DNA of 27,901 nt. Origin: Rhodocyclaceae bacterium. Its GTDB lineage: Bacteria; Pseudomonadota; Gammaproteobacteria; Burkholderiales; Rhodocyclaceae. Every line of letters starts with the position of its first letter. Position 1 is the first letter of the stretch. The DNA is taken from assembly GCA_013821865.1 (NCBI GenBank), contig PNJM01000002.1, positions 1 through 27,901 on the forward strand, written 5' to 3'. The notes below the pieces were generated by a model. It was not told the DNA's origin. It saw only the letters and a program-made list of their open reading frames with translations, and ran no database searches. Position numbers and translations under genes: made by a program. This document shows positions 9,849 through 27,437 of this stretch, piece by piece.

Positions 9849-9904
9849 CGCGCTGGCCGGCTGCGGCAGGCATTCTGCGGCTTAAAATGACTTGTCGTCC
9901 GGAT

Positions 9905-12407: not shown

Positions 12408-12843
12408 GATCGACCGCGCCATCGTCAACGCCCTGCAGGGCGATTTCCCGATCTGCGACGAGCCCTACCGCGAGGCGGCGGAGAAGCTGGGCATCGCCGA
12501 GGCCGAGTTGATCGCGCGGCTTGGCCGCCTGCTGGAAGAAAAGACGCTGACGCGCTTCGGCCCGATGTTCCAGGTCGAGCGCATGGGCGGCGCCTTCGTG
12601 CTGGCCGCGCTGGCCGTGCCCGAGGCCGACTACGAGCGCGTGGCGGCGCAGGTGAACGCCCTGCCGGAAGTGGCGCATAACTACAGGCGCGAACATGCGC
12701 TGAATATGTGGTTCGTGCTGGCGACCGAAGCGCCGGAGGGGATTCAGGATGCGATCGGCCGGATCGAACGATCGACCGGCCTCGCGGTCTACCTTTTCCC
12801 CAAGCTGAAAGAGTACTTCGTCGAAATGAAACTGGCGGCGTGA
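12400..12843 (+). CDS. nirG: Siroheme decarboxylase subunit NirG
   Basis: 147-aa AsnC/Lrp-like heme d1 biosynthesis protein. It shows the helix-turn-helix-like N-terminus (IDRAIVNALQGDFPICDEPY) and the RAM-like domain with NYRREHALNMWFVLA, the same NY-REH-NLWF pattern as the NirD half of the previous protein, which is how NirG is distinguished from NirH. Expected to act in the NirDLGH siroheme decarboxylase. It overlaps nirDL by eight bases, and its final base is the first base of the nirH start codon. Confidence 0.93.
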   Translation: MDEIDRAIVNALQGDFPICDEPYREAAEKLGIAEAELIARLGRLLEEKTLTRFGPMFQVERMGGAFVLAALAVPEADYERVAAQVNALPEVAHNYRREHALNMWFVLATEAPEGIQDAIGRIERSTGLAVYLFPKLKEYFVEMKLAA

Positions 12844-13337
12844 TGGGTGCCGGGACCGTGCAACCCGATGCGGACGACCGCCGCCTGATCATGGCGACGC
12901 AGGGCGGCCTGCCGCTGGTGCCGCGCCCCTACCATGCCCTGGCCGAACAACTCGGCCTGGGGGCGGAGGACGTCATGGCGCGCCTCACCCGCCTGCTCGA
13001 CGCGGGCGTGATCCGCCGCATCGGCGCCGTGCCCAACCATTACGCCCTCGGCTACACCGCCAACGGCATGAGCGTGTGGGACGTGCCCGACGAGTGCATC
13101 GACAAACTCGGCGAGCAGGTCGGGCGCCTGCCCTTCGTCAGCCACTGCTACCATCGCCCGCGCCACCTGCCGCACTGGCCCTACAACCTGTTCGCCATGG
13201 TGCATGGCAAGAGCCGCGAGGAAGTGGAGACGCAGGTGCAGAGAATCGCCGACCTGCTCGGCGGCGACTCTCGCGCCCATGACGTGCTCTACAGCAGCCG
13301 GATCCTGAAGAAGACCGGCCTGCGCATCGGAGGCTGA
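12843..13337 (+). CDS. nirH: Siroheme decarboxylase subunit NirH
   Basis: 164-aa AsnC/Lrp-like protein with the NirH/NirL-type pattern: RPYHALAEQLGL, GVIRRIGAVPNHYALGYTAN, and CYHRPRHLPHWPYNLFAMVHGK, where the WPYNLF segment parallels the NirL half of NirDL. Part of the siroheme decarboxylase set. ATG at 12843 overlaps the nirG stop; the frame is open further upstream inside nirG but that portion is not family-like. The C-terminal ILKKTGLRI is typical. A small hairpin-rich insert follows it before nirJ. Confidence 0.93.
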   Translation: MGAGTVQPDADDRRLIMATQGGLPLVPRPYHALAEQLGLGAEDVMARLTRLLDAGVIRRIGAVPNHYALGYTANGMSVWDVPDECIDKLGEQVGRLPFVSHCYHRPRHLPHWPYNLFAMVHGKSREEVETQVQRIADLLGGDSRAHDVLYSSRILKKTGLRIGG

Positions 13338-13457
13338 GATGACGACCTATCCCCCGACCCCTTTCCCGAGGAAAGGGGTGACGATGGTTCAGCCGCTGCG
13401 CGGCTTCCATGTTGTTGACTTCACCCCTCCTTGGGGCGGCCCTGCGGAGGGCTGAGA
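13328..13457. repeat. Hairpin-rich insert flanked by near-identical direct repeats, between nirH and nirJ
   Basis: CGGAGG-CTGAGA (13328-13339) and CGGAGGGCTGAGA (13445-13457) differ by one inserted G and bracket about 105 bases. Inside are a nine-base perfect stem CCCCTTTCC/GGAAAGGGG (13358-13366/13370-13378) with a CGA loop, a GCCGC/GCGGC hairpin near 13392-13404, and a longer-range pair AGGGGTGA (13374-13381) with TCACCCCT (13421-13428). This is the only loose junction in an otherwise overlapping operon. It resembles a small MITE or REP-like insertion, or a duplication of the ribosome-binding-site region. No second copy is seen in the window. Confidence 0.55.
13339..13455 (+). CDS. Possible 38-aa ORF filling the nirH-nirJ gap
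   Basis: ATG at 13339 follows the nirH stop by one base and has GGAGG five bases upstream. The frame runs 38 codons to a TGA four bases before the nirJ GTG. The peptide is rich in Pro, Gly and Arg and covers the hairpin-rich insert, so it may be an accident of the insertion, with the ribosome-binding site once belonging to nirJ. Translation through it could keep ribosomes coupled to nirJ. No homologue is recognised. Confidence 0.25.
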   Translation: MTTYPPTPFPRKGVTMVQPLRGFHVVDFTPPWGGPAEG

Positions 13458-13459
13458 AC

Positions 13460-14602
13460 GTGTTCCGCATCTCGCAGTACATGGAAGAAATTTCCCACCC
13501 AACGCCGCTGGGGCCGAAGCGCAATCCGCCCGGCCCGGTGGTGATCTGGAACCTGATCCGCCGCTGCAACCTCACCTGCAAGCACTGCTACTCGATCTCC
13601 GCCGACAAGGATTTCCCCGGCGAGCTGTCCACCGCGGAAATTTACGGCGTGATGGACGACCTCAAGCGGCACCAAGTGCCGGTGCTGATCCTTTCCGGCG
13701 GCGAACCGCTGCTGCGGCCCGACATCTTCGACATCGCGAAACGCGCCAAGAGCATGGGCTTCTATGTCGGCCTGTCCTCCAACGGCACGCTCATCACCGA
13801 AGCCAACATCGACCGCATCGCCGAGATCGACTTCAACTATGTCGGCGTCAGCCTGGACGGCATCAGGGAAACGCACGACAAGTTCCGCCGCATGGCGGGT
13901 GCCTATGAGAAATCCCTCCACGGCATCCGCCTCTGCCGCGATCTCGGCCTCAAGGTCGGCGTGCGTTTCACCATGACGCAGGACAATGCCCACGATCTGC
14001 CCGGCCTGCTCAGGCTGGTCGAGGACGAGGGCATCGACCGCTTCTATTTCTCGCACCTCAACTACGCCGGCCGCGGCAACAAGAACCGCAAGGACGACGC
14101 CCACCACCAGATGACGCGCTGGGCGATGGACATGCTCTTCGACACCTGCTGGGACGATCAACAGCGCGGGCTGCGCCGGGAGTTCACCACCGGCAACAAC
14201 GACGCCGACGGCGTGTACCTGCTCTACTGGGTGCGGAAGAACTTCCCGCATCTCGAAGACCATATCCGCGCCAAGCTGGTACAGTGGGGCGGCAATTCCT
14301 CCGGCGTCAATGTTGCCAACATCGACAACCTCGGCAACGTGCATCCCGACACCATGTGGTGGCACCACACCCTCGGCAACGTGCGCGAGCGGCCGTTTTC
14401 GCAAATCTGGACGGACGTCTCGGACCCGATCATGGCCGGGCTCAAGGCCAAGCCGCGCAAGGTCGGCGGCCGCTGCGGCGCCTGCCGCCATTTCGACATC
14501 TGCGACGGCAACACCCGCGTTCGCGCCCAGCAGCTCACCGGCGATCCGTGGGCGGAGGACCCGGGCTGCTATCTCACCGACGAGGAAATCGGCATCCGAT
14601 GA
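13460..14602 (+). CDS. nirJ: Heme d1 biosynthesis radical SAM protein NirJ
   Basis: 380-aa cytoplasmic radical S-adenosylmethionine enzyme that removes the two propionates of didecarboxysiroheme during heme d1 synthesis. Radical SAM cluster Cys36-x3-Cys40-x2-Cys43 (CNLTCKHC), AdoMet-contact LSGGEPLLRPD, and a SPASM-like C-terminal auxiliary cluster region (CGACRHFDICDGN and DPGCYL). The N-terminus VFRISQYMEE matches the family, so GTG 13460 is chosen, with GGAGG nine bases upstream; an ATG at 13409 would add 17 residues encoded by the insert. The stop overlaps the nirN ATG. Confidence 0.95.
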   Translation: MFRISQYMEEISHPTPLGPKRNPPGPVVIWNLIRRCNLTCKHCYSISADKDFPGELSTAEIYGVMDDLKRHQVPVLILSGGEPLLRPDIFDIAKRAKSMGFYVGLSSNGTLITEANIDRIAEIDFNYVGVSLDGIRETHDKFRRMAGAYEKSLHGIRLCRDLGLKVGVRFTMTQDNAHDLPGLLRLVEDEGIDRFYFSHLNYAGRGNKNRKDDAHHQMTRWAMDMLFDTCWDDQQRGLRREFTTGNNDADGVYLLYWVRKNFPHLEDHIRAKLVQWGGNSSGVNVANIDNLGNVHPDTMWWHHTLGNVRERPFSQIWTDVSDPIMAGLKAKPRKVGGRCGACRHFDICDGNTRVRAQQLTGDPWAEDPGCYLTDEEIGIR

Positions 14603-16176
14603 AAGCGAGCTTTATTCTGCGTGGCCTGTTGCCGCTGGGTCTGGCATTTGTTGTTTCAAATCTGCTTGCAACTTCCCTCGCAGCCGCCGAGCCGGCGCAG
14701 GATCTCTACCGCAAGCATTGCGCCGAGTGCCACGGTGCCGACCGCTTCGGCTTGATGGGCCCGGCCCTGCTGCCGGAGAACCTCTCCCGCCTGAGGAAGG
14801 ACGCCGCCGCCGCGATGATCCGCGACAGCCGTCCCGCCGTACAGATGCCGCCCTTCAAGGACGTGCTGAAACCGGAGGAAATCCAGCAGCTCGCGGACTA
14901 CATCTACACGCCGATCACGCCCTTGCCGCAATGGGGCGAGAAGGAGATCCGCGCCTCGCGCATCGTGCATCACGCGCCGGGCAGCCTGCCCGACAAGCCG
15001 CAGTTCGTCGCCGACATGATGAATCTTTTCATCGTGGTGGAAGGCGGCGACCACCATGTCACGGTGCTCGACGGCGACAAGCTGGAGCCCATCCACCGTT
15101 TCCCCTCGCGCTTCGCCCTGCACGGAGGACCGAAGTTCACGCCGGACGGGCGCTATGTCTTCTTCGCCTCGCGCGACGGCTGGGTCTCGAAGTTCGACGT
15201 CTGGAACCTGAAGACCGTGGTTGAAGTGCGCGCCGGCATCAACACGCGCAATGCCGCCGTCTCAGGCGACGGCAAATACGTCGCCGTGGCCAACTATCTG
15301 CCGCACACGCTGGTCATCCTCGACGCCGATCTCAAGCTCGTGAAGATCCTGCCGGTGACGGACCAGGAGGGCAGGAGATCCTCGCGCGTCTCCGCGGTGT
15401 ACGACGCCGCGCCGCGCCGGAGCTTCGTCGCAGCGCTGAAGGACGTGCCGGAAGTATGGGAGGTGAGCTACGACCCGAAGGCGCCGGAAATCCCGGTCGG
15501 ACTGGTCCATGATTTCAAGTACCGCGAGGGCGCCTTCATACCCGGCTTCCTCAACCCGCGCCGTTCACCGCTCGACGACTACCTGGATGATTTCTATTTC
15601 ACGCAGGATTATTCAGAGCTGATGGGCTCCTCGCGCGACGGCAAGCAGGGCCAGGTGGTGCATCTCGACGTGCGCAAGAAGATCGCCAGCGTCGACCTGC
15701 CGGGCATGCCGCACCTCGGCTCCGGCATCTCCTGGATGCACGAAGGCCGGCGCGTCATGGCCACGCCCAACCTCAAGGAAGGCCTCGTCAGCATCATCGA
15801 CGTGAAGGACTGGAAGACCATCAAGCAGATCAGCACCCCCGGCCCCGGTTTCTTCATGCGCAGCCATGAGAACACGCGCTACGCCTGGGTGGACTCCATG
15901 ATGAGCCGCGAGCACAAGGACACGCTTACCGTCATCGACAAGAACACGCTGGAAGTCGCGGCACGGCTCAGGCCCGTGCCGGGCAAGACGCTGGCGCACA
16001 TCGAGTTCACTAAAGACGGCAAATACGCGCTCGCCAGCCTGTGGGAGAACGACGGCGCGCTGATTGTTTTCGACGCCGAGACTCTGAAGGAAGTGAAGCG
16101 CATCCCGGCGAAGAAGCCGGTCGGCAAGTACAACGTCTTCAACAAGGTCACCCGTTCGGCGGGCACCAGTCACTGA
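14599..16176 (+). CDS. nirN: Dihydro-heme d1 dehydrogenase NirN (cytochrome c / d1-propeller)
   Basis: 525-aa periplasmic protein: signal peptide (about 1-30), cytochrome c domain with heme motif CAECH (Cys41, Cys44, His45) and VQMPPF Met ligand, then an eight-bladed d1-type propeller (about 130-525). It resembles NirS but fits NirN. FALHGG (His175) corresponds to the d1 axial ligand region, PHLGSG (His372) keeps one active-site His, and in ATPNLKEG the place of the second catalytic NirS His appears to be Asn391. NirN oxidises dihydro-heme d1 to d1, the last step, before handing it to NirS. Last gene of the operon; its ATG overlaps the nirJ stop. Confusion with a divergent NirS is the main alternative. 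Confidence 0.87.
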   Translation: MKASFILRGLLPLGLAFVVSNLLATSLAAAEPAQDLYRKHCAECHGADRFGLMGPALLPENLSRLRKDAAAAMIRDSRPAVQMPPFKDVLKPEEIQQLADYIYTPITPLPQWGEKEIRASRIVHHAPGSLPDKPQFVADMMNLFIVVEGGDHHVTVLDGDKLEPIHRFPSRFALHGGPKFTPDGRYVFFASRDGWVSKFDVWNLKTVVEVRAGINTRNAAVSGDGKYVAVANYLPHTLVILDADLKLVKILPVTDQEGRRSSRVSAVYDAAPRRSFVAALKDVPEVWEVSYDPKAPEIPVGLVHDFKYREGAFIPGFLNPRRSPLDDYLDDFYFTQDYSELMGSSRDGKQGQVVHLDVRKKIASVDLPGMPHLGSGISWMHEGRRVMATPNLKEGLVSIIDVKDWKTIKQISTPGPGFFMRSHENTRYAWVDSMMSREHKDTLTVIDKNTLEVAARLRPVPGKTLAHIEFTKDGKYALASLWENDGALIVFDAETLKEVKRIPAKKPVGKYNVFNKVTRSAGTSH

Positions 16177-16250: not shown

Positions 16251-18188
16251 TCAGCGGCCATTTCTTTCCGGCTCCGCCGGCGCCTGTAGCGCCATCGAGC
16301 GACCCGAGATGCGGAAGGCGTCGGAGAAGCACATGCCTTCCTCGGCGCCCTGGTTCTTGAGCTTCGGGAAGATTGCCTCGACCATCTTCACCGAGCCGCA
16401 AGCGTAGATCTCGTTGCCGGCCAGGCTGGGGAAGTCCTGCAGGATGGCTTCGTGCACGAGGCCGGTGCGGCCGGTCCAGTGGTCTTCCGGTTTCGGCTCG
16501 GAAAGCACCGGGATGAACTTGAAGTTGCTGTGTTCGCGCTGCCATTGTTCGGGCAGTTGCGGCAGATACAGATCCTCCGGTCGGCGCACGCCCCAGTAGA
16601 GGCGGATCTCGCGCCTGATGCCGCGATGGAAGGCGTCCTCGACCATGCTCTTGACCGGCGCGAAGCCGGTGGCGCCGGCGACGAAGATGATTGGACGGCT
16701 GGATTCGCGCAGGACGAAATCGCCGAGCGGGCCTTCGAAGAGGATCGGGTCGCCTACCTTCATTTCCTCGAAGACGTGAGTGGTGAAGCGTCCGCCGGGC
16801 ACCAGGCGGATCTGCAGTTCGACGTTCTCGGCCTCGTGCGGCGCGCTGGCGAAGGAGAAGGCGCGTCTCTCGCCGTCATCGAGGAGGATGTTGATGTACT
16901 GCCCTGCGACGAAGGGAATCCTCTGCCCTTCAGGCAGCTTGATGATGACGCGCATGACGTCGTGGCTGAGCAGTTCCATTTTCTCGACGCGGCCTAGATA
17001 CTCCTTGACCAGGGTGCGCGCCAGCGCAACTTCCGGCACGTACTCGATCTCCACGTAGGAGAGCGGCGTGGCGCAGCACATCAGCACCTTGCCCATGGCG
17101 CGCTCCGCAGTGCTGAGCGCGCTGTTCTGGTACACGCCGGGATCGACTTCGCCGTTCAGCACGGCGCACTTGCACAGGCCGCAGCCGCCATTGCGGCATT
17201 CGTAGGGCAGGTTGATGCCCTGGCGCAGGCCGGCGTCCAGAATCGTTTCGCCGAAACGCGCCTTGATGGTCTTGTTGTCCGGATGCACGGAGATGTCGAG
17301 TTCGGCCTTGGCGCCGCGAAGCAGGTGCGGCGGCAGCCAGGGTGCGAGGAAGAGCAGCACGCTGGCGCCGATGAGCAGGATCCACAGGCGTTCGAGCGGC
17401 CAGTCGTAAATGAGCGGGTAGATCGGCAGCAGGAACCAGTCGAAATCGAGTGAGGTGACCTCCACCGAGAGGTTGGCCGGCCCCTGGCTCACTACCGGCT
17501 TGACTAGCGACAGCGCCAGGAAGGTGAGCGTCACGGCGATGGCGATCGCCCGCGGCGGGTTGATGTGGGCGCGCGGCACGCGCTGCACGTGGATCCACAT
17601 CAGCATCAGCACCACCAGCGGCGCGCCGAGGTGGATGAAGGCGAACAGCGTGAACAGGCGGTCGTTCACCGCGCCTTCGAAGATGAAATTGCGGATCAGG
17701 GTGCCCTTGAAGAGGGGCAGCCAGTCGAGCATTTCAGCGGTGGCGACGGTAACGAACTGTGCCAGCTTGTCCCACGGCAGCATGAAGCCGTTGATGCCGG
17801 AGATGCACACCAGCCAGATGAGGATCACACCGGTAACCCAGGAGAACCAGCGGAAGCCGCGGTATTTGTCGAAGCCGAAGTGGCGCACCATGTGCAGCAG
17901 CATGGTGAGGATCATGCCGTCCGAGGCGTAGCGGTGAATGCTGCGCATGATGCCGCCCAGCCACCACTGGCCGTGGGTGATCTGCTCCATGGATTCATAG
18001 GCGTCCTTGACCCCCGTGTCCATGAAGATGTAGAGGTAGAGCCCGCTGATCGAAACCAGCCAGAACTGGAAGAAAGTAATCGTGCCGAGGTGGTAGAGAG
18101 GGTTCAGCTTGTCGCCGAAGGCGGTGTTGAACACTGCTTCGGCGCGCATGAACAACCATTGCAGGAGCTTGTGGAAATACTTGAGCAT
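16251..18188 (-). CDS. Cytochrome b - [2Fe-2S] ferredoxin - FAD/NAD(P)H reductase fusion
   Basis: 645-aa three-module protein. Residues 1-290: cytochrome b/b6-type membrane domain with paired heme ligands His85/His99 and His186/His200 (both 14 apart) and FRWFSWVTGV. Residues 295-385: plant-type [2Fe-2S] ferredoxin, Cys331, Cys336, Cys339 and Cys371 (or 372). Residues 390-625: ferredoxin-NADP reductase fold, FAD motif RAFSFASAP, nucleotide motif VAGATGFAPVKSM, C-terminal YACGSVKMVEA. It should link quinones in the membrane to NAD(P)H in the cytoplasm. I recall a cytochrome b/b6 fused to flavin- and NAD(P)-binding domains being highlighted in the 'Ca. Accumulibacter' metagenome (Garcia Martin et al. 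2006) as a route for anaerobic quinol reoxidation; this looks like that family. Direction of electron flow is not settled by sequence. The promoter has an FNR-type box. Confidence 0.88.
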   Translation of the reverse strand: MLKYFHKLLQWLFMRAEAVFNTAFGDKLNPLYHLGTITFFQFWLVSISGLYLYIFMDTGVKDAYESMEQITHGQWWLGGIMRSIHRYASDGMILTMLLHMVRHFGFDKYRGFRWFSWVTGVILIWLVCISGINGFMLPWDKLAQFVTVATAEMLDWLPLFKGTLIRNFIFEGAVNDRLFTLFAFIHLGAPLVVLMLMWIHVQRVPRAHINPPRAIAIAVTLTFLALSLVKPVVSQGPANLSVEVTSLDFDWFLLPIYPLIYDWPLERLWILLIGASVLLFLAPWLPPHLLRGAKAELDISVHPDNKTIKARFGETILDAGLRQGINLPYECRNGGCGLCKCAVLNGEVDPGVYQNSALSTAERAMGKVLMCCATPLSYVEIEYVPEVALARTLVKEYLGRVEKMELLSHDVMRVIIKLPEGQRIPFVAGQYINILLDDGERRAFSFASAPHEAENVELQIRLVPGGRFTTHVFEEMKVGDPILFEGPLGDFVLRESSRPIIFVAGATGFAPVKSMVEDAFHRGIRREIRLYWGVRRPEDLYLPQLPEQWQREHSNFKFIPVLSEPKPEDHWTGRTGLVHEAILQDFPSLAGNEIYACGSVKMVEAIFPKLKNQGAEEGMCFSDAFRISGRSMALQAPAEPERNGR

Positions 18189-18243: not shown

Positions 18244-18285
18244 AATATAAGGGTTTAATTATTTTTCTTCCATGATTTGAATCAA
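18244..18285 (-). promoter_or_regulatory. FNR/DNR box and -10 element for the cytochrome b-FNR fusion gene (shared divergent region)
   Basis: ATGAT-TTGA-ATCAA (18272-18285) matches TTGAT-N4-ATCAA at nine of ten positions. On the minus strand a TATATT hexamer (18249-18244) is centred 32 bases away, exactly class II spacing, predicting transcription from about 18237 towards the fusion gene. On the plus strand GAGAAT (18308-18313) is also centred 32 bases away, so one box could drive the DUF2249 gene as well. Confidence 0.7.
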
Positions 18286-18363
18286 GGCCGGTTCGGATGG
18301 CGGCGCGGAGAATCGGGCCGCCATCCGCATTCGGCAGTGATTAACCCCACCAGGAGGACAACC

Positions 18364-18624
18364 ATGTCTCATCCGCATCTGCATCTGCAAGCCGACCAGC
18401 TTTACCCTTTCGACGCGCGCGGCATCGCCAAGCGCTTCCGCCATGCCGCCATCTTCGGCGCGCTCGACGCGCTGTTCCCCGGCGAGACCATGCGCTTCTG
18501 CAACGACCACGATCCGCTGCCGCTGCTCGACCAGCTGCGCGCCCGCTACGGCGAGAAGGTCGGGATCCAGTACGTCAAGCGCGAGCCGGGCGAGATCGTC
18601 ATCGACTTCGCCAGGAAGCAGTAA
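18364..18624 (+). CDS. DUF2249 domain protein
   Basis: 86-aa soluble protein of the DUF2249 family (TusA-like fold). The N-terminal HPHLHLQADQ is His-rich; the family core is FDARGIAKRFRHAAIFGALDALFPGE, then NDHDPLPLLDQLRARYG. DUF2249 genes often sit beside denitrification or NO-response genes, but the function is not established. AGGAGG lies seven bases before the ATG. An upstream in-frame ATG at 18277 falls inside the FNR box and is rejected. Directly coupled to the next gene: the TAA stop is immediately followed by its TTG start. Confidence 0.85.
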   Translation: MSHPHLHLQADQLYPFDARGIAKRFRHAAIFGALDALFPGETMRFCNDHDPLPLLDQLRARYGEKVGIQYVKREPGEIVIDFARKQ

Positions 18625-19740
18625 TTGCTGCCGGTTCTTGTTGCCGCCGCCGTCGCCTGCGTCGCGGCGTCGGTCGCGCTGATTCTCTTCACTGTGGCGG
18701 CACCCGCCGCCGCGGCGCATCTCGCTTTCGCGGCAGGCATCATGCCGCTCATTTTTGGCGCCATGATGCACTTTGTGCCGGTGCTCACCCGCAGCCGCGC
18801 ACCGGCGCAGCCACTGCACTTCCTGCCTTTCGCCGCGAGCGGCGCCGGCCTGCTCGCGGCGGGCGCATTTTTTCTGCCTGAGTTCTTCAGTGCCGGCAGC
18901 CACGCCGGCGCCGCGCTGGCGCTCGCCACCTCGATCATCATGGCGGCGTGGATCGTGCGGCGCGCGAAGGCCGCGCTGGGCGCGCCGCACCCTTGCCTGC
19001 ACTGGTACCTGGCCGCGGTGCTTTGCCTCGCCCTGGCGCTCGTTGCCGCACTTGCCATGAGCGCGCTGCCGGGGCAGCGCGCAGCGTTGCGCGTCTTCCA
19101 TCTGCATCTGAATACGCTCGGCTTCATCGGCCTCACGGCCATCGGCACGTTGCAAGTGCTGTTGCCGACTGCCGCCGGACGTCCCGACCAGAAAGCGGGT
19201 GCCCGCCTGCGCGGCGACTTGCCGCTGGCCGTGGCCGGCGTGCTGCTCATTGCGGCCGGTGCCGCCTGGCTGAAGCCCGCCGCCTATGCCGGCATGGCGC
19301 TGCTGCTGATCGCCGTGGTGCGCCTCGGCACGGCCTGGGCCGCGCATTTCCCGAACGAGATGGGCCGGCTGCATGGGGCCGCGCCTTCTCTCGCCCTCGC
19401 CTTGTTCGGCTTTGCCGCGCTGCTGTTTGCCGGCGCCGGCCATGCCAACGGCCGTCTTGCCGGCAACGATGCCATATTCGGTTTCGTCATCGCCTTCCTG
19501 CTGCCGCTGGTCACCGGCGCGGCGAGCCAGCTGCTCCCGCTCTGGCTCAGGCCCGGCGTGCAGACGGCGTGGCATCACGAGGCCCGCACTGCTATGACTC
19601 GATTCGGCGGCGTGCGCGGACTGGCCTTCGTCGTTGCCGGGCTGTGCGTTGCCCTCGGCTGGCCTGTTGCGGCCTGGGCTGCCGCCGCGGCGCTGGCGGT
19701 CTTCATCGGGCAATTGTTGCGCGTGGCTGTACGGCGCTGA
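18625..19740 (+). CDS. Polytopic membrane protein, NnrS-like / heme-copper-like
   Basis: 371-aa protein that is almost entirely hydrophobic, with roughly 10-12 membrane segments. It has a conserved-looking FHLHLNTLGFIGLTAIGTL segment (His159, His161) and His residues at AHLAFAAG (32) and MMHFVP (49). HLHLN-GFIGLT motifs occur in NnrS-like and heme-copper-related membrane proteins; NnrS is a heme/copper membrane protein linked to NO stress. I assign the class, not the exact family. The TTG start at 18625 directly follows the DUF2249 stop and has AGGAAG six bases upstream; the first ATG is well inside the first hydrophobic segments. Its stop lies three bases from the converging HCO-like gene's stop. 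Confidence 0.6.
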   Translation: MLPVLVAAAVACVAASVALILFTVAAPAAAAHLAFAAGIMPLIFGAMMHFVPVLTRSRAPAQPLHFLPFAASGAGLLAAGAFFLPEFFSAGSHAGAALALATSIIMAAWIVRRAKAALGAPHPCLHWYLAAVLCLALALVAALAMSALPGQRAALRVFHLHLNTLGFIGLTAIGTLQVLLPTAAGRPDQKAGARLRGDLPLAVAGVLLIAAGAAWLKPAAYAGMALLLIAVVRLGTAWAAHFPNEMGRLHGAAPSLALALFGFAALLFAGAGHANGRLAGNDAIFGFVIAFLLPLVTGAASQLLPLWLRPGVQTAWHHEARTAMTRFGGVRGLAFVVAGLCVALGWPVAAWAAAAALAVFIGQLLRVAVRR

Positions 19741-19743
19741 GCG

Positions 19744-21153
19744 CTACCTCGAGCCGACGCGGATCGACTTGATCACCACCACCACGAAAACCAGTCCGCC
19801 GATGATGGCGACGAGGCCGCCCAGGCCCATGATGCCCATTGCCACGATTTCCTGCGTGCTGCGCAGAACCTGTTCGGCGCCGGCGACCTTGCGCTGCACG
19901 CCGTAGCCGCCCGACCACATCAGGCCGCCGATGTGCATGGCCTGGCCCACCGCGTAGCAGTAGGACGAGAAGGTGGCGGGCCTGCGCGCCGGCATGCCGT
20001 AGCCGAGGCGCGGCAGAAGGTGGTAGACCAGGCCCATCAGCGACAGCGTCACGCCGACGATGCAGCCGTGGTAGTGGGCGGGAATCTTGACGTTGTTGCC
20101 GGCGATCATGAACCCGATGATGCCGCCGAAGCAGAACAGCAGCAGCGACGAGTAGAGCGCCGCGCGCAGCGGCCGCGCATCCGGCTCGACCGGCGTGCCG
20201 GGGCGCAGCCCGGCGACCACCGCCAAGGCCACCGGCAGGATGGGCAGCCCGCCGCCCAGGCCCATGGCGAAAGTGAGCAGGTTGCGGTGCTCCACGGCAT
20301 GCACGGGCCAGAGCAGATAGGCGACCGGGATGACGAGCGCGCCCACCGTCGCCAGCGCGAACATCAGCAGGGCGATGCGCGGCTGCATCGGCACGCGCGC
20401 GCCGCAGGCGCTGGCCAGCCACAGCCAGGCCGCGATCATGAAGGCGGTCCAGATGAATTGCAGGGCGTGGCCGCCGCCCCAAAACAGTATCTCGTAGTAA
20501 GCCTTGCCGGAGAGCGTGCCGGGCGTGGTCAAGTACGACCATGCGAAGGCGGTCAGCGCAATGGCGGCGGGAACGAGGCCAAGGGTGAGCCCGGCGCGCA
20601 GCGCGCCGGCGCCGTCGAGCGGCCATGACAAACGCGGTGCCGCGACGAAACCGCGCAGCACGAGCAGGGACGAGCCCGCCCCGAGGATGATCAGCCCCCA
20701 CAGGAAGACCGGGTCTTCCAGCACGGGGATGTAGTTGGCCATGACCGGCCCGCCGCGGCCGATATAGGGCGAGGCCGTCATCAGCAGGGTGCCCAGCGCG
20801 GACACCGCCAGCGCCGCCTGCCCGAGCGGCATGGCGCGCGTGCTGCCGCTCAGGGACCAGAGAATGCCGCCGATCGAGATGAACCAGACCAGCACCGAGA
20901 GATCGACGTGCACCACCAGCGCGACGTGGAAGAAATCGGCCAGCGGGAAGAGCGTCTGCACGCCCGGCGTGCGGGAAACGACGAGCAGAATGGACAGGAT
21001 GCCGGAGCCGATCAGCGCCAGCAGGCCGAGCCAGAGCCAGCCGCGGGCGAGCTTCCTGAGCCGCGCGTCGGCGTCGGGCAGGATGTAGCCGGTCGCAACT
21101 GCGATTGCAGCCGCGGCTGTGGTGGACGGCAGGCTCTCGGCGGCGACGCTCAT
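19744..21153 (-). CDS. Divergent heme-copper-oxidase-superfamily-like membrane subunit
   Basis: 469-aa, about 12 membrane segments. The histidine pattern suggests the heme-copper superfamily: His82 (VVHVDLSVLVW) as helix II low-spin heme ligand; His229 (FWGGGHALQF) in the helix VI position; His285 and His289 (PVHAVEHR) in place of the usual adjacent His-His of helix VII; His360/His362 (IPAHYHG) as the helix X pair. There is no Tyr four residues after His229 (Phe233), so the O2-reductase Tyr of A/B families is absent; Glu221 and Glu288 flank the predicted site. It may be an NO reductase-type enzyme, or a heme protein without the binuclear centre. ATG overlaps the upstream gene's stop (ATGA), third gene of the trio with the one-TM protein and the cytochrome b-Fd-MvhD fusion. 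Confidence 0.7.
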   Translation of the reverse strand: MSVAAESLPSTTAAAAIAVATGYILPDADARLRKLARGWLWLGLLALIGSGILSILLVVSRTPGVQTLFPLADFFHVALVVHVDLSVLVWFISIGGILWSLSGSTRAMPLGQAALAVSALGTLLMTASPYIGRGGPVMANYIPVLEDPVFLWGLIILGAGSSLLVLRGFVAAPRLSWPLDGAGALRAGLTLGLVPAAIALTAFAWSYLTTPGTLSGKAYYEILFWGGGHALQFIWTAFMIAAWLWLASACGARVPMQPRIALLMFALATVGALVIPVAYLLWPVHAVEHRNLLTFAMGLGGGLPILPVALAVVAGLRPGTPVEPDARPLRAALYSSLLLFCFGGIIGFMIAGNNVKIPAHYHGCIVGVTLSLMGLVYHLLPRLGYGMPARRPATFSSYCYAVGQAMHIGGLMWSGGYGVQRKVAGAEQVLRSTQEIVAMGIMGLGGLVAIIGGLVFVVVVIKSIRVGSR

Positions 21154-21671
21154 TGAATGAAGACGACCCCGCCTTTCTCGGCGTCGAAGTCGATGACCAG
21201 AATCTGCGCCGGCTTGAGCGTCACCTTCTCGGCCTTGCTGAAGTTGAAGTCCTTGATGCGTACGCTGTCGTTCATTTTTACCGCCAGCGTGTGCTCGCCG
21301 GCCGGGATCTCGAAGCGCCGGTAGATGGTCGAGGTGCCGTCCCTGGAGAGCCCGGAGGGAGGCGCGATGCCCGCGAACAGCGGCTCGCCGTCCAGATCGA
21401 CCTGGACCCTGACCGGCGAGCGCTCGCGCACGCATTCCATCGGCGCGCGCATGTTGGGCGCCAGCCTGGCCAGCTCTTCCGGGGTGCGCTTGCGGCACTC
21501 CGCGACCGGCTGGCCATGGTGGCTGAAGGACAGCTTGATCAGCGCATGATCGGGCGGCAGGTGCTCGTATTTCGGCGCGGTGGAGAAGTAGCCGATGATC
21601 ACGGCGAAGAGGCCGTAGAGCAGCGCCTGGCCGGCGAGAGCGAGGGGGTTGAGAGCGGACTTGCTAACCAT
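21150..21671 (-). CDS. One-TM membrane-anchored protein of unknown function
   Basis: 173-aa protein with an N-terminal membrane anchor (LALAGQALLYGLFAVIIGYF) and an extracytoplasmic domain predicted rich in beta strands (VRVQVDLDGEPLFAG, then IYRRFEIPAGEHTLAVKM). The domain has two Cys (AECRKR, MECVRE) about 20 residues apart, which might form a disulfide, and no CuA, heme c or other metal motif. Start ATG 21671 overlaps the end of the cytochrome b-Fd-MvhD gene by eight bases, and its stop overlaps the HCO-like gene's ATG. Strict coupling implies a structural or assembly subunit of the same complex. I do not recognise a named family. Confidence 0.75.
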   Translation of the reverse strand: MVSKSALNPLALAGQALLYGLFAVIIGYFSTAPKYEHLPPDHALIKLSFSHHGQPVAECRKRTPEELARLAPNMRAPMECVRERSPVRVQVDLDGEPLFAGIAPPSGLSRDGTSTIYRRFEIPAGEHTLAVKMNDSVRIKDFNFSKAEKVTLKPAQILVIDFDAEKGGVVFIQ

Positions 21672-23238
21672 GGTAGGCGATCCTCCGGGGAGTATAAGCG
21701 CGCGGACGCTTTTCGTCCGCACCGAGATCCTGCAGATTCTTGCGGAATTCCGCCAGCGCCGCGGCGAGGCTGCCGGCTTCGGGCCGGTCGGCCCAGGCGA
21801 TGCGCAGGCGCTCCCGCGGCACCGTCGGGCGCAGGTGCGGTTCGCGCGTACCGGACATGCGCCCCTCCGTCCATTGCGCGCCGAAGCGGTAGGCGCAGCT
21901 GCCCTCGCGGCAGCCGGTGATGAGCACGCCGTCGGCGCCGCCGCGCAGGGCGTACTCGACGAAGGAGGGCGGCAGCAGGCCGCTGCACATCAGGTTCAGC
22001 ACGGCCGTGTCGGCGCTTTCCAGGCGGCGCGCATTGGCGGCGCACTCGCAGCCGAAGACGACGATTTTCGGCGAGGCGGCGAGCGCGGCGATCTTGCATT
22101 CCATTTCCTCGCGCAAAGCCGAAACCGGCTGCCGCGGCATGTCGATGCCGGTGACCAGCCGTTCGACGCTGCGGAAAGGCGTCGAGGAAGGGCAGGCGCC
22201 GGCGCAGATGCCGCAACTGGCGCACAGGTCGGGAACGACGCGGGCCAACTGGTGGCCGGGCTTGTCCGGGTGGGGCTCCATCACCACGGCGAAATAGGGG
22301 CAGTCCTCGAAGCAGCGCCGGCAGCCGTTGCAGTTGGCCGGATCCACGACAGCGACCGGCGGCTGCCTCGGGTGCGGCAGCAGGGGCAGAATGCACAGCA
22401 GCAGCGTCGCCACGGCAGCAATGGCCCACAGTCCCGCGGGCGAGGTGGCGTACATGAGCGGGTGCGCGAACAGGTAGTACCAGTCGATGCCGACGGTTTG
22501 CGGAACCATGGAAAGATCGGCGCGCCCGTGCGATACGGTCGGCTTGATCAGCGATAGCGCGGTCAGCATGGCGAAAGTGCCCCAGCCCAGCGAGCGCGAG
22601 GGAAAAACGTCGGCGCGCGAGATGCGCTGGATATGCACCCACAGCGCGAGCAGCAGCAGCAGCGGAATGCCGATGTGCAGGAACACCAGCAGCGTGAACA
22701 AGCGGTCGTTGACGGCGGCCGGAGTAATGAAGTTGCGCATGGCCGGGGTCGAAAAGATGGCGAGCCAGTCGAACCATTCGGCGCTGGCGATGGCGGAGAA
22801 CTGGCCGAGCTGGTCCCACACCAGCCAGTAGCCGCCGATGCCAGAGGCGTAGACCAGCCAGATGACGGGCACGCCGGTGATCCAGGAGAACCAGCGGAAG
22901 CCGTGGTAGCGGCCGTAGAAGAACTCGCGCGCCAGGTGCAGGAGCATCACGACGATGAGGGCGTCGGCCGAGTAGCGGTGCAGGCTGCGCAACAAGCCGC
23001 CGAGGTACCACTGCTCCTGCGTGTAGTACTCGATCGAGGTGTGTATGTCCTCGATGCCGGTGTCGAGGACGGCAAAGAGATAGATGCCGCTCGCCGCGGT
23101 CAGCCAGACGAAAAAAAAACCGAGCGCACCCAGGTGTCGCCAGGGGTTGCCGGCGGCATCGAAGAACACGTCGAAGAGGTTCTCGACACGCTGCTGGAGG
23201 GCAAGACCGCCCTCACGGAAGGCGGCAAAAAAACTCAC
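21664..23238 (-). CDS. Cytochrome b - 2x[4Fe-4S] ferredoxin - MvhD fusion
   Basis: 524-aa fusion. Residues 1-290: diheme cytochrome b with His87/His101 and His188/His202, clearly paralogous to the fusion at 16251-18188 (shared HRY, FRWFSW-TGV, VNDRLFTL). Residues 295-352: two [4Fe-4S] motifs CxxCxxCxxxCP (Cys303-313 and Cys339-349). Residues 390-460: MvhD/FrhD-type domain with Cys397, Cys399, Cys418 (MCSG), Cys443 and Cys448 (GCREGSC), ending in a basic tail. MvhD passes electrons to HdrA-like flavoproteins in methanogens, and QmoB of sulfate reducers carries a related domain. The protein likely connects membrane hemes/quinone with a soluble iron-sulfur or flavin partner not encoded here. GTG start, no clear ribosome-binding site; FNR-type box upstream. 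Confidence 0.88.
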   Translation of the reverse strand: MSFFAAFREGGLALQQRVENLFDVFFDAAGNPWRHLGALGFFFVWLTAASGIYLFAVLDTGIEDIHTSIEYYTQEQWYLGGLLRSLHRYSADALIVVMLLHLAREFFYGRYHGFRWFSWITGVPVIWLVYASGIGGYWLVWDQLGQFSAIASAEWFDWLAIFSTPAMRNFITPAAVNDRLFTLLVFLHIGIPLLLLLALWVHIQRISRADVFPSRSLGWGTFAMLTALSLIKPTVSHGRADLSMVPQTVGIDWYYLFAHPLMYATSPAGLWAIAAVATLLLCILPLLPHPRQPPVAVVDPANCNGCRRCFEDCPYFAVVMEPHPDKPGHQLARVVPDLCASCGICAGACPSSTPFRSVERLVTGIDMPRQPVSALREEMECKIAALAASPKIVVFGCECAANARRLESADTAVLNLMCSGLLPPSFVEYALRGGADGVLITGCREGSCAYRFGAQWTEGRMSGTREPHLRPTVPRERLRIAWADRPEAGSLAAALAEFRKNLQDLGADEKRPRAYTPRRIAYHG

Positions 23239-23277: not shown

Positions 23278-23319
23278 ATGATATGACTTCGTGCCGAAAA
23301 GCGACTTGACCGGTGTCAA
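23278..23319 (-). promoter_or_regulatory. FNR/DNR box and -10 element for the cytochrome b-Fd-MvhD operon
   Basis: TTGAC-CGGT-GTCAA (23306-23319) is a perfect inverted repeat with the Fnr-family TTGA-N6-TCAA core. On the minus strand TATCAT (23283-23278) is centred 32 bases away, the class II spacing, predicting transcription from about 23271 and a leader of about 33 bases. The box overlaps the 3' end of the SCO gene. Confidence 0.75.
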
Positions 23320-24179
23320 ACCCCGCGGGTTTTGTTGGTCCTGAATCCGCGCCAGAGATACCAGACGATATAGAAGAAGAAGGTCAGGAAACCGCCGATC
23401 TCGAAGAACAGGGCATAGTTCAGACGATACTGGCCGGTGTTGGGGTCATATACCGAGCAGAGAATGCGCACGCGGTCGACGATGTCGGCGATGGGGTTGG
23501 TCTGCGCCACCGGCGCCCCCGTGACGAGTTGCTTGAGCGGCTCGACCAGCATGTCGGCGGTGAGCGCCTCGCCGTACACCTGGCGGTAAACCCTGCCTTC
23601 GGCGTCGACGATGGTGACCTGCACGACATGGTCGAAGCCGGCGGGAGTCGGCACGTAGCTGAAGCCGAAGCTCTTTGTCAGCTCGTCCAGGATGGCCGGC
23701 GCCGGGCTGAGGAACTCCCAGTTGGGGAAGACAATGCCGTTCTGCGAGGCAAAGGCCTTGAGCGCGGAAGGGGAATCGAAGGGCTGGTTGAAGCCGATGC
23801 TGACGACATTGAAGCGATCGGCACCCAGCGTCGCCACGGTATTGACGACGGCTTTTTGCAGGTTCCTGGTGGTGGTCGGGCAGACCTGGAAGCAGCCCGT
23901 GTACATGAAGCTCACCAGCAGCGGCTTGCCGCGATAGCCGGCCAGTCGCACCGGCTTGCCCTCGCGATCGAGCAGGGTGAAATCGCCGACGGGCTTGTTG
24001 ACCGCCGACTGGGACAGTTCCAGGGCCTTCTTCTGGTCGAGCGCCGGCACGTTCGGCGCCGCCGCCGGATCGAGCGGGCGGGAGGAAAGCTGCGTGTCGC
24101 CTTGTGCGGCGAAGAGAACCGTTGTCCAGCAAAGCAAAAGGGCAGGCAAGCAGCCTGCCCGGCGTGTGTTGATGTTCAC
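23316..24179 (-). CDS. SCO1/SenC family copper chaperone
   Basis: 287-aa thioredoxin-fold protein that delivers copper to CuA in subunit II. N-terminal signal or anchor (about 8-25); Cu ligands Cys96 and Cys100 in YTGCFQVCPTTT and His184 in GFDHVVQ; and, unusually, a hydrophobic segment near the C-terminus (about 255-280, IGGFLTFFFYIVWYLWRGF) giving a second membrane anchor. It lies 15 bases downstream of cyoE in the same direction, last in the CuA-reductase operon, which agrees with maturing the CuA site of the subunit II encoded at 26898-27437. The 3' end overlaps the FNR box of the next operon. Confidence 0.92.
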   Translation of the reverse strand: MNINTRRAGCLPALLLCWTTVLFAAQGDTQLSSRPLDPAAAPNVPALDQKKALELSQSAVNKPVGDFTLLDREGKPVRLAGYRGKPLLVSFMYTGCFQVCPTTTRNLQKAVVNTVATLGADRFNVVSIGFNQPFDSPSALKAFASQNGIVFPNWEFLSPAPAILDELTKSFGFSYVPTPAGFDHVVQVTIVDAEGRVYRQVYGEALTADMLVEPLKQLVTGAPVAQTNPIADIVDRVRILCSVYDPNTGQYRLNYALFFEIGGFLTFFFYIVWYLWRGFRTNKTRGV

Positions 24180-24194
24180 GAATTTGGAACTGCG

Positions 24195-25085
24195 CTAGAA
24201 GCGGGCGTCAATGATCGCCGTAGTGAGAACCAGCGTCAACTGCAGCAGCGAGGCATGGAAGCAGGCCAGCGCCGTCTTGCGGCCCGGGTTGCGCGCCAGC
24301 TGCCAGGCCTTGGCGATGAAGACGGTGCCGCCGATGGCTGCGCCGGCCAGGTAGATGGCGCCCAGGCCGAAAAAAACCGGCAGAAGGGACGCCGTGACCA
24401 GCGCCAGCGTGCTGGCGAAGATGGTGCGCGCGGCGCGCGCTTCGCCCACGACCACGGGCAGCATCGGCACGCCGGCTGCCGCGTAGTCCTCGCGATAGGC
24501 GATCGCCAGGCTCCAGAAGTGCGGCGGCGTCCACAGGAACAGCACGAACGCCAGCAGCAAGGGCACGGCGCCCAGTTGCGGATCGACCGCCGCGGCGCCG
24601 GCCAGAACCGCCCAGCTGCCGGCCAGGCCGCCGATGACGATGTTGAGCCAGGTGCGCCGCTTCAGCCACACCGTATAGACAATGGCGTAGAAAAAGGCGC
24701 CAAGGAAAGTGTAGAGCGCAGCCCAGACATTGAGGGCGAGCCAGGCCGCGGCGACCGAGGCGACGACGAGGAAGCCGATCAGCCAGAGCCAGGCCGGGCC
24801 GTGCTTGAGTTCGCCCGCGGCAAAGGCGCGCTTCTTCGTGCGCGACATGAGCGGATCGATGTCGTGCTCGTAGTACTGGTTGAAGGCGCCGGCGCTGGCG
24901 GAGGAGATCAGCACGGCCAGCGCGAGAATCGCCATCTGCCACCCCGACAATGCCGCCCCCGGAGTGACGGCAAGCCCGGCCAGGGCGGTGAACATGATGA
25001 CGAAGCCGATGCGCAGCTTGAACAGGCCGAGAATCCGGCGAAGCTGCGTGGCGACGGGTCGGGTTGGGGGGTGAGCCGATTCCAT
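24195..25085 (-). CDS. cyoE: Protoheme IX farnesyltransferase (heme O synthase)
   Basis: 296-aa UbiA-family prenyltransferase that adds a farnesyl group to heme b, giving heme o. The prenyl-diphosphate motif is AFNQYYEHDIDPLMSRT, followed by KKRAFAAGEL; the second conserved loop is YTVWLKRRTWLNIVIGG, and FLWTPPHFWSLA is diagnostic of heme O synthases. About nine membrane segments. Located between subunit I and SCO1, implying that the reductase carries heme o or a derivative such as heme a. Also called ctaB in oxidase operons. No strong ribosome-binding site is seen; a perfect 16-bp hairpin lies upstream. Confidence 0.95.
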   Translation of the reverse strand: MESAHPPTRPVATQLRRILGLFKLRIGFVIMFTALAGLAVTPGAALSGWQMAILALAVLISSASAGAFNQYYEHDIDPLMSRTKKRAFAAGELKHGPAWLWLIGFLVVASVAAAWLALNVWAALYTFLGAFFYAIVYTVWLKRRTWLNIVIGGLAGSWAVLAGAAAVDPQLGAVPLLLAFVLFLWTPPHFWSLAIAYREDYAAAGVPMLPVVVGEARAARTIFASTLALVTASLLPVFFGLGAIYLAGAAIGGTVFIAKAWQLARNPGRKTALACFHASLLQLTLVLTTAIIDARF

Positions 25086-25200: not shown

Positions 25201-26886
25201 TTATGCCAGACCCCACAGCGAGGACAGATACTTCCAGTTCACGAAGTAGTACAGGATGAACGACGTGAGGAAGATCAGCGCCAGCACCATGGTGCCCGGG
25301 GTGGAAGGAGCGTGGGCCGCCTGGCCGCCGGCCGGAGCCGGCAGGGTGAGCGGAACCGGCGTGCTGCGGGTCTCGCCTTCGTCCAGCTTCTTGCCGAAGA
25401 GCAGCGAGAAGACAATCTGCAGGATCCAGCCGCCGCCGCCGATGACGGCCACCACACCGGAGATGCCGGTCAGGCCCATCATCAGGTAGGCGGCACCCGG
25501 CCACTCGTAGGCGAAGGGCGAGCCGGCGAAGGCCATGTCCCAGTGCCGGCGGGAGACGCCCAGCGTGCCGGCGCCCATCATCACCAGCGCCATGACGTAC
25601 ATGGAGAGGCCGAAGAGATAGGGCTGCAGCTTGGCGAAGCCGGGGAACAGCACCTCGCGCTTGAACAGGACCGGGACCAGGAAGTAGGTCAGGCCCATGA
25701 ACGCCAGCGTGGTGCCGATCACGACCGTCGCGTGGAAGTGTCCCGGCACGTAGATGGTGTTGTGGATCAGCAGGTTGAGCTGTTCCGTGCCCATCATCAC
25801 GCCCGAGATGCCGCCGAGGAAGCCGAAGCCGATCAGCGAGAGGAACATCGCGGAGAACGCCGGGTTGCCCCAGGGCGCCTTGCGCAGCCACTCGAACAGG
25901 CCCTTGTTGAAGCCCTTGGCGCGCTGCGCCTGCTCGATGGCGCCCGGCACGGTCATGCCGTGGATCATCGAGGCCAGCACCGCGAAGTACATGAAGTACG
26001 AGGTGTTGACCACCTTCCATTCGGAGCCGACGCCCGGATCGGAGAGCAGGTGGTGGGCGCTGGCGAGCTGCAGGAACAGGATGTAGAGGAGGAAAGCGGT
26101 GCGGCTCACCTTCTCGGACATCGGCTTGGCGCCGAAGACGATGGCGGCGATGGCGTACCAGATGGCCACGTGCGCAGACACGTTGATCTGCTGCGAGCTG
26201 TGGCCCATCGCCCACCAGACGACGCGGTACATGATGGTGTCGATTTCGCGGATGTAGCCGACCGACCAGAGGAAGGTCGGGATCAGGATCACGGCACCGG
26301 AGGCGATGGTGAAGATGGCGATGATGGCGGCGGTCAGCGCGCCGAAGGTGACCAGCGGGATCGAGCCCTCGTAGGTCTTCTCCGCCTTGGCCACGACCAG
26401 GGTGCCGAGGAAGACGAAGCAGCCGAGCAGCGCGCCCACGGCGAAGAGGATCAGGCCGAGGTAGAAGTGCGGCTTGGCCTGCATCGGCACGTAGGACGTG
26501 AACATCACGCTCGATTCGCCCTGGAAGATGGCGACGTTGGTCATCACTGCGCCGATCGCCATGAGCCAGAAGCCGAGCCAGGCAATCTTCGGCGTCGCCA
26601 GGCGGCAGTGCAGCAGCGTGGACGAGGCGAAGTAGAGCACGGCCATCTCGAAGAAGATGATCCAGAACAGCAGCATGTCAACGCCGTGGGCCGTCAGGAC
26701 CATGTAGAACTGGTCCGCCGGCAGCAGGTGCACCGCCGGCCAGCGGGTGAGGATGACGCCCAGCGCCATGATGCCGCCGACGAGAAGGGCCAGCACGCCG
26801 GCAACGGCGTTCCAGCGCATCAGCTTCTCGGCGTCGGTGTCGAATTGCAGCCCGGATCGCGGGCAGATGCGGTAAGTCGTAGCCAT
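25201..26886 (-). CDS. Heme-copper reductase subunit I, eNOR-like (Tyr replaced by Gln)
   Basis: 561-aa, at least 12 membrane segments, likely an enzyme core with low-spin heme, high-spin heme and CuB. All six metal His are present: His67 (helix II), His229 (helix VI), His278-His279 (helix VII), His383 and His385 (GHFH, helix X). In O2 reductases of A and B families helix VI reads H-P-E/I-V-Y, with Tyr cross-linked to His. Here it reads MGHSSQQINVS, so the Tyr position (His+4) is Gln233. Codons at 26188-26202 confirm it. Loss of this Tyr, with a CuA subunit II, is what I know of the eNOR group of nitric oxide reductases. Automatic annotation would probably say ctaD/cytochrome c oxidase subunit I. 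AAGGGG precedes the ATG; 11 bases after subunit II. Confidence 0.88.
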   Translation of the reverse strand: MATTYRICPRSGLQFDTDAEKLMRWNAVAGVLALLVGGIMALGVILTRWPAVHLLPADQFYMVLTAHGVDMLLFWIIFFEMAVLYFASSTLLHCRLATPKIAWLGFWLMAIGAVMTNVAIFQGESSVMFTSYVPMQAKPHFYLGLILFAVGALLGCFVFLGTLVVAKAEKTYEGSIPLVTFGALTAAIIAIFTIASGAVILIPTFLWSVGYIREIDTIMYRVVWWAMGHSSQQINVSAHVAIWYAIAAIVFGAKPMSEKVSRTAFLLYILFLQLASAHHLLSDPGVGSEWKVVNTSYFMYFAVLASMIHGMTVPGAIEQAQRAKGFNKGLFEWLRKAPWGNPAFSAMFLSLIGFGFLGGISGVMMGTEQLNLLIHNTIYVPGHFHATVVIGTTLAFMGLTYFLVPVLFKREVLFPGFAKLQPYLFGLSMYVMALVMMGAGTLGVSRRHWDMAFAGSPFAYEWPGAAYLMMGLTGISGVVAVIGGGGWILQIVFSLLFGKKLDEGETRSTPVPLTLPAPAGGQAAHAPSTPGTMVLALIFLTSFILYYFVNWKYLSSLWGLA

Positions 26887-26897
26887 TTACGCGCCCC

Positions 26898-27437
26898 TTA
26901 TTTCACGTAGATGCGTCCGACCATCGTGTGATGGCCGATGCCGCAGTATTCGTTGCAGACGATGGAATAGGTTCCCGACTGGTTCGGCGAGATCTTGAGG
27001 ACGTGCTCGTAGTTCGGATGAACCTGGATGTTGATGTTCTGCGGCTGCAGCGAGAAGCCGTGCATGTAGTCCATCGCGGAAAGGTGCAGCTTGTACTGCT
27101 TGCCCTTTTCCAGTTCGAGGATCGGCCACCAGGCCCACAGGCGGCCGATCAGATACACGTCGGACCCGGCCGGCGGCTTGACCACGGGGATCTGCTGGTC
27201 CGTCTCGGTGCGCACCGTGTACTTGTCGACCATCGCCTGGGTCTTGGCGGCGAACATTTCCTTGGTGGTCTTGTAGGTCTCGTTGGCCAGGTTCTGGTTG
27301 CCGTAGATATGCCAGTAGACCATCATGCCGAACATCACCAGCGACCAGACGAACGCGATCGCGATCCAGGTCAACTCCAGCTTGTCCAGCGGCGCTTTCC
27401 ACCAGACTCGCTCGGCGGGTGGGCTGATTGCACTCAT
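26898..27437 (-). CDS. CuA-binding subunit II of the heme-copper (eNOR-like) reductase
   Basis: 179-aa electron-entry subunit that takes electrons from cytochrome c. One N-terminal membrane anchor (about 21-42), a helical linker, then a cupredoxin domain outside the cytoplasm. CuA ligands: His126 (DYMHGFSL), Cys161, Glu163, Cys165, His169 and Met172 in CNEYCGIGHHTM. WAWWP (101-105) is the aromatic electron-transfer patch usually near CuA. A single anchor and short length resemble B-type oxidase and eNOR subunits rather than A-type subunit II. GGGAGA precedes the ATG. It stands between the 49-aa peptide gene and subunit I. CuA rather than a heme c rules out classical NorC. Confidence 0.93.
   Translation of the reverse strand: MSAISPPAERVWWKAPLDKLELTWIAIAFVWSLVMFGMMVYWHIYGNQNLANETYKTTKEMFAAKTQAMVDKYTVRTETDQQIPVVKPPAGSDVYLIGRLWAWWPILELEKGKQYKLHLSAMDYMHGFSLQPQNINIQVHPNYEHVLKISPNQSGTYSIVCNEYCGIGHHTMVGRIYVK

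Follow-up and report, generated by a model that had tools for sequence, protein, structure and literature searches.

A conserved fusion of cytochrome b, dicluster ferredoxin, and MvhD domains accompanies a predicted eNOR-type nitric oxide reductase

A 27,901-nucleotide stretch of DNA from a Rhodocyclaceae bacterium, referred to here as the window, encodes a protein in which a membrane cytochrome b is followed by two [4Fe-4S] motifs and an MvhD domain. The preliminary description of this locus noted denitrification genes nearby and suggested a quinone-linked exchange of electrons with a soluble Hdr- or ferredoxin-type partner. The locus raises the question of whether such a protein is a conserved entity and, if so, which enzyme it serves.

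In Pfam searches, the Cytochrome_B match (residues 33 to 206, 54.2 bits) and the Fer4_7 match (residues 302 to 351, 35.4 bits) of the fusion protein were over their curated cut-offs. FlpD was matched at residues 401 to 506 with 65.8 bits against a cut-off of 22.3 (E 4.9e-18), which confirms the assignment of the C terminus to MvhD. Cytochrome_B, Fer4, and FlpD were all found in 38 of 38 aligned members, in agreement with the claim that one polypeptide joins the three modules, and the fusion is a conserved protein family rather than a product of split ORFs. Some genome matches carry one internal stop (e.g., 11 of 36 rows); even so, the open frame in these reaches 515 amino acids or more. Among NCBIfam models, residues 293 to 510, the iron-sulfur arm, correspond to HdrA2 columns 569 to 776 only and scored 99.5 of 1100 bits, below the cut-off, which places the protein outside HdrA2. 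The membrane part came nearest to models of ExtP and cytochrome b6, none of which reached its cut-off. A profile of residues ~205 to 295 matched subunit IV of the b6f complex (2e74_B, E 7e-5) and bc1 cytochrome b, and in the profile alignment the DW[FY] motif of the fusion falls on the EWY of the Qo-site PEWY, with Asp replacing Glu. In an AlphaFold2 model (pLDDT 85.3, pTM 0.82), helices A to F follow the order of bc1/b6f cytochrome b, and Foldseek matched the model to bc1 cytochrome b (8smr_D, E 9.4e-8) and to MvhD (5odc_D, E 4.9e-5).

Ligand conservation was read from an alignment of 46 rows, made up of the window and 45 of 48 extracted relatives, three having been dropped as truncated or armless. 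The heme ligands proposed earlier, His87, His101, His188, and His202, are invariant in all 46 rows and correspond to the bis-His ligands that helices B and D carry in the bc1/b6f complexes. The same holds for the eight cysteines of the two [4Fe-4S] motifs (C303, C306, C309, and C313; C339, C342, C345, and C349). For the MvhD domain, five cysteines had been named; C397, C418, C443, and C448 are invariant in 46 of 46 rows, but Cys is not conserved at position 399, where His is commonest (39%), which leaves four conserved. D252 is present in 44 of the 46 rows and W253 in every one. The alignment shows that a single polypeptide carries conserved predicted ligands for a pair of b hemes, a pair of [4Fe-4S] clusters, and an MvhD-type [2Fe-2S] cluster.

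Each part has known relatives. Like the C-terminal module of HdrA2 and QmoB, the fusion has a dicluster ferredoxin and then MvhD, but it is without the FAD core of HdrA and has a membrane cytochrome b instead. It shares the four heme histidines and the helix order with b6 and subunit IV of b6f and with bc1 cytochrome b and has DW[FY] at the position of their PEWY, and it differs from them by its C-terminal iron-sulfur arm and by Asp for the Glu of PEWY. As the preliminary description had supposed, our searches brought up no characterized protein built in this way.

Four genes lie upstream of the fusion on the same strand, in the order subunit II, subunit I, CtaB, and SCO (Table 1). The best-scoring solved relatives of subunit I are ba3-type oxidases; HSSQQ stands at the place of their GH-x-x-x-Y, and Q233 occurs in all 49 rows compared, namely the window and 48 of 54 extracted sequences (the remainder were truncated or off-target). 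Gln at the active-site Tyr position is given as the mark of eNOR in the available part of PMC8756737. The cupredoxin subunit II encoded beside subunit I has CuA-type ligands, and its COX2 match is just under the Pfam cut-off (20.9 of 22 bits). We read these neighboring subunits as a predicted eNOR-type nitric oxide reductase, and the UbiA-family gene as CtaB (heme O synthase) from its context.

Table 1. Positions in the window of the fusion gene, its domains, and the neighboring genes
Feature	Position	Strand	Remarks
eNOR subunit II, cupredoxin	26898..27437	-	C161, C165, H118, H169, and M172 invariant in 52 rows
eNOR subunit I, heme-copper superfamily	25201..26886	-	Gln233 replaces active-site Tyr
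UbiA-family prenyltransferase	24195..25085	-	PF01040, 178 bits
SCO1/SenC copper-delivery protein	23316..24179	-	PF02630, 52.9 bits
Fusion protein (cytochrome b6-type, petD-like, dicluster ferredoxin, MvhD/FlpD)	21664..23238	-	524 amino acids, GTG start
Cytochrome_B domain of the fusion, residues 33-206	22621..23142	-	heme ligands H87, H101, H188, H202
petD/subunit IV-like extension, residues 213-292	22363..22602	-	D252-W253-[FY] aligned to PEWY
Dicluster ferredoxin, residues 295-352	22183..22356	-	eight invariant Cys
MvhD/FlpD domain, residues 395-508	21715..22056	-	C397, C418, C443, C448 invariant
memb190	21150..21671	-	N-terminal helix and beta-sandwich, two invariant Cys
COX1b, second divergent heme-copper subunit I-like protein	19744..21150	-	PF00115, 43 bits
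cytbFNR: cytochrome b, [2Fe-2S] ferredoxin, FAD/NAD reductase	16251..18188	-	

Downstream of the fusion come memb190, COX1b, a gene pair on the plus strand, and cytbFNR. The chosen start of memb190 overlaps the stop of the fusion (the listed ORF begins at 21722). Its beta-sandwich is probably periplasmic, and a structure search returned generic beta-sandwiches only; a Pfam scan of 28 members gave no FixH/CcoH match at E up to 1. The start of COX1b is uncertain, its ORF beginning at 21498; H81, E220, H228, Q231, H359, and H361 of this protein are invariant in 28 rows, and H284 is poorly conserved. cytbFNR is 46% identical to residues 15 to 288 of the fusion, and the best NCBIfam match of its reductase part is BenC, an NADH-driven type, below cut-off. 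It is often found beside the fusion, Accumulibacter loci included. A cytochrome b/b6-FNR fusion was reportedly described for Accumulibacter by Garcia Martin et al. in 2006. By description only, cytbFNR has the same architecture, with FNR standing where the fusion protein has its iron-sulfur/MvhD arm. The available part of PMC2289847 remarks on "a novel cytochrome". The plus-strand pair (18277-19740, between COX1b and cytbFNR) encodes a DUF2249 protein and a 371-amino-acid protein without a Pfam match, which recur in 6 and 5, respectively, of 80 named loci (the best 80 of 544 relatives). Farther along, 9887-16176 (plus strand) holds genes that read as heme d1 biosynthesis (nir) genes; the last ORF there combines a cytochrome c part with weak matches to a propeller and is NirN-like by position.

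We then compared the distribution of the fusion with that of eNOR in three samples. Among 150 genomes of the family, the fusion and eNOR were each found in 30, with both in 28, the fusion only in 2, and eNOR only in 2. The class sample (274 genomes) gave 24 and 24, with 23 having both and 1 and 1 having one alone; these counts include two genomes, G354 and G417, whose fusion was matched in pieces. The phylum sample (249 genomes) gave 32 with the fusion and 29 with eNOR, of which 28 had both, 4 the fusion only, and 1 eNOR only. Fisher p was <1e-25 in each sample, in tests that ignore phylogeny and on samples that share one genome (G000) and some genomes without either gene. The union of positives holds 84 genomes with the fusion, 81 with eNOR, and 77 with both. 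The seven fusion-only genomes are fragmented (74 to 96% complete, 160 to 730 contigs), and in them loss and gap look alike. In three of the four eNOR-only genomes (G014, G413, and G494), eNOR lies near a contig end where the fusion would follow, and in G014 a piece of the fusion is present at that end. The fourth, G017 (97% complete), is a real exception: it has eNOR, memb190, and a bare 295-amino-acid cytochrome b with no Fe-S or FNR part (L040, 11423-12944). Separately, tandem copies of the fusion occur in three genomes of one family, G558, G623, and G648 (L159, 7653-10994; L170; L171), and the two of these in which eNOR was found have a more distant eNOR (50 to 51% identity).

The suggested tie to denitrification is supported. 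The fusion tracks the predicted eNOR encoded in the same gene run, an association that the preliminary description had not named. Co-occurrence with nirS had been proposed as a check. A marker of the nirS pathway, nirJ, was present in 49 of 53 genomes with the fusion but also in 17 of 27 hand-chosen fusion-negative members of the family. The fusion follows eNOR more sharply than it follows nirS.

Gene content was counted with identity thresholds in 80 named loci, the best 80 of 544 confirmed relatives, to which the counts in this paragraph refer unless stated otherwise. Their hosts include Accumulibacter, Sulfuritalea, Curvibacter, Ramlibacter, Comamonas, Simplicispira, Gallionellaceae, and some Alphaproteobacteria. 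eNOR subunit I lay within the fetched locus in 68; for the other 12, a genome-wide search found eNOR elsewhere in 11, the miss being L102, a 3-kb contig, so that eNOR, linked or not, is present in 79 of 80. Accumulibacter genomes are among those with no eNOR within 10 kb of the fusion. memb190 lay no more than 2 kb from the fusion in 78 loci (74 within 1 kb, the other four at 1.6 to 1.9 kb) and next to it in 20 of 20 further loci, mostly picked because eNOR lay elsewhere or was unfound. SCO was present in 72, subunit II in 65, CtaB in 63, cytbFNR in 63, and a COX1b match in 58, 47 of them on the strand of the fusion. When the ORFs of 140 loci were clustered, the widest families were eNOR, the fusion, SCO, and memb190. 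Ten further clusters were annotated by a Pfam scan, among them a Cytochrom_D1 protein (40 loci), DUF1318 (28), a Crp-type regulator (19), hemerythrin (14), PCu(A)C (11), NnrS (8), and a small cytochrome c (8). Among the annotated clusters, we recognized no Rieske or c1 partner. Taken together, these results show that the fusion is inherited with eNOR and memb190 and that its pairing with memb190 is near constant.

What the fusion does for eNOR is a matter of weighing several readings. We tentatively favor, at somewhat less than an even chance, a membrane electron-transfer unit dedicated to eNOR and made up of the fusion and memb190. The co-occurrence with eNOR, the invariant redox ligands, and the petD-like part with its DW[FY] motif support this reading. 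The iron-sulfur arm would be cytoplasmic and would take electrons from a general donor, a ferredoxin or a flavoprotein encoded elsewhere. Electrons would then run from the [2Fe-2S] cluster through the two [4Fe-4S] clusters to heme bH and heme bL, and from bL to quinone or to a periplasmic-side acceptor near the PEWY-like DW[FY] site, and so to eNOR; in many relatives, cytbFNR would feed the same route from NAD(P)H. We favor electron input because cytbFNR puts a BenC-like, NADH-type reductase on a similar cytochrome b and because a published table has a similar ORF with an added cytochrome domain. That ORF, RME88945.1, is listed in Table A3 of PMC8756737, without discussion in the available part of the paper, with cytochrome b6, a DMSOR-beta-type ferredoxin, FlpD, and a C1 cytochrome homologue. 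The last of these sets it apart from our fusion and would add a further heme to the pathway. Apart from this trace, in a source available in part, the literature searched contained neither the fusion, whose parts are known, nor its tie to eNOR, and biochemistry on the fusion was not found there.

Several observations count against an electron-supply unit. No conserved electron-donor gene was recognized among the annotated clusters of the loci besides cytbFNR, and ORFs with CXXCH are few nearby: a scan of 120 loci, on the same strand and within 3 kb, gave one convincing ORF (543 amino acids, L153), the remaining matches being ferredoxin motifs inside fusions or short overlapping ORFs. The small cytochrome c cluster noted above reaches no more than 8 of 140 loci. 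The loci in which the fusion is unlinked argue against a tight subunit of eNOR, and neither the iron-sulfur arm nor the FNR arm is indispensable, because G017 has a bare cytochrome b beside eNOR and memb190.

The main rival, which we consider rather unlikely and yet close behind the favored reading, is that the fusion is a reductase for the assembly or maintenance of eNOR, similar to CcoG or to CrpH, a PepSY_TM protein with two hemes. The b hemes would carry cytoplasmic electrons across the membrane, where either Cu(II) or thiols in SCO, subunit II, or memb190 would be reduced so that CuA and CuB can be built, with memb190 in place of CcoH. This would fit the position of the fusion in linked loci, usually between SCO and memb190 and near CtaB, the presence of a PCu(A)C copper chaperone among the locus clusters (11 of 140 loci), and the nature of memb190 as a one-helix protein with two invariant Cys. 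The fusion and memb190 also stay paired where eNOR lies elsewhere, a behavior that would suit a factor acting in trans, and the related cytochromes b carry two alternative electron inputs. On the other side, copper reduction has no obvious need for a petD-like half that bears a PEWY-like motif, and no cluster of P-type-ATPase length was present among the 74 found in at least 8 of 140 loci. CcoG itself is not known to have a cytochrome b or an MvhD domain, and the CcoG/FixG Pfam domains, which define CcoG, were absent from the 25 families found in the scan of 38 fusion members; nor did any CcoG, CcoH, or PepSY_TM family appear when these and 28 members of memb190 were scanned. CcoG and CrpH are the precedents for this reading. 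The available part of PMC8267372 presents CcoG as a cupric reductase and has CcoH remain with the oxidase. In the cbb3 system, as here, a membrane dicluster Fe-S protein and a small one-helix protein go with a heme-copper enzyme. CrpH, according to the available part of PMC13038864, supports heme-copper oxidoreductases and overlaps with ccoG, copper reduction by it being speculation in the authors' words.

It is less probable still, though not negligibly so, that the fusion works as half of a Rieske-less cytochrome b pair, with a second fusion or cytbFNR and memb190, that splits the electrons of quinol. Quinol would be oxidized at DW[FY], the first electron going to eNOR and NO and the second up the b hemes and the Fe-S arm (or FNR) to a low-potential carrier, either ferredoxin or NAD. 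The Qo-type motif is kept, many loci hold a paired cytochrome b (cytbFNR, in the proportion of named loci given above), tandem fusions exist in three genomes, and NO and eNOR form a strongly oxidizing acceptor side. However, the Glu of PEWY is Asp in the fusion, no candidate acceptor for the first electron was recognized among the locus clusters, and G017 is without any cytoplasmic acceptor arm.

A soluble Hdr/Qmo-type flavoprotein that exchanges electrons with the fusion through the MvhD domain, as first suggested, now appears very unlikely. The arm does have its closest match in the C-terminal quarter of HdrA2. An HdrA flavoprotein core (HdrA2 profile, ~columns 1 to 606, at least 150 bits) was found in 27 of 53 genomes with the fusion, two of which are doubtful yet counted (G073, with an oddly long frame, and G316, with stops). 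The own assembly has two FlpD places, the fusion and a QmoB/HdrA-like protein on contig C191, where HdrC and HdrB stand beside it. By sequence reading, the order on C191 (L001) is a QmoB/HdrA-like ORF with a ferredoxin-MvhD end, then HdrC- and HdrB-like ORFs; we noticed no QmoC-like membrane subunit on this short contig. An Hdr-type partner as a rule is nevertheless not supported: an Hdr partner is not required, because in 26 of the 53 genomes no core reached 150 bits, and the strongest match among those listed was to an MvhD-type C terminus, in most cases that of the fusion itself. Of these 26 genomes, 23 have a completeness of 90% or more. The Qmo complex also combines a membrane b heme with HdrA/MvhD-like parts, in separate subunits and with flavoproteins. 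The fusion loci differ from it: in tblastn searches, the own genome's HdrC and HdrB matched none of the 165 fetched loci, and 38 of the 165 were matched by its QmoB-like protein solely through the ferredoxin-MvhD half, with no match to the flavoprotein part. That the fusion just travels along with a mobile eNOR cluster and plays no part in NO reduction is least credible of all, since the association with eNOR holds when the two are unlinked and every redox ligand is invariant, even though most copies are linked and the percent identities of the fusion and eNOR correlate across 38 rows (r 0.85), which genes inherited together would show in any case.

The hosts of the fusion are denitrifiers, including Accumulibacter and several isolates, such as Comamonas granuli NBRC 101663 (L151), Ramlibacter lithotrophicus RBP-1 (L144), and Simplicispira lacusdiani CPCC 100842 (L156). 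The companionship of the fusion with eNOR suggests an unrecognized link of this little-studied enzyme to intracellular redox chemistry. Putative eNOR genes occur in many bacteria and are often mislabeled as oxidases, according to the available part of PMC8756737, and a near-constant partner such as the fusion would strongly mark the presence of eNOR in genomes of Pseudomonadota. In the fusion, the Hdr-type MvhD module would also be employed beyond the chemistry of Hdr and Qmo. If quinol bifurcation were true, NO respiration would pay for low-potential reductant. More broadly, the fusion could reveal the electron source of eNOR or the way in which it is assembled.
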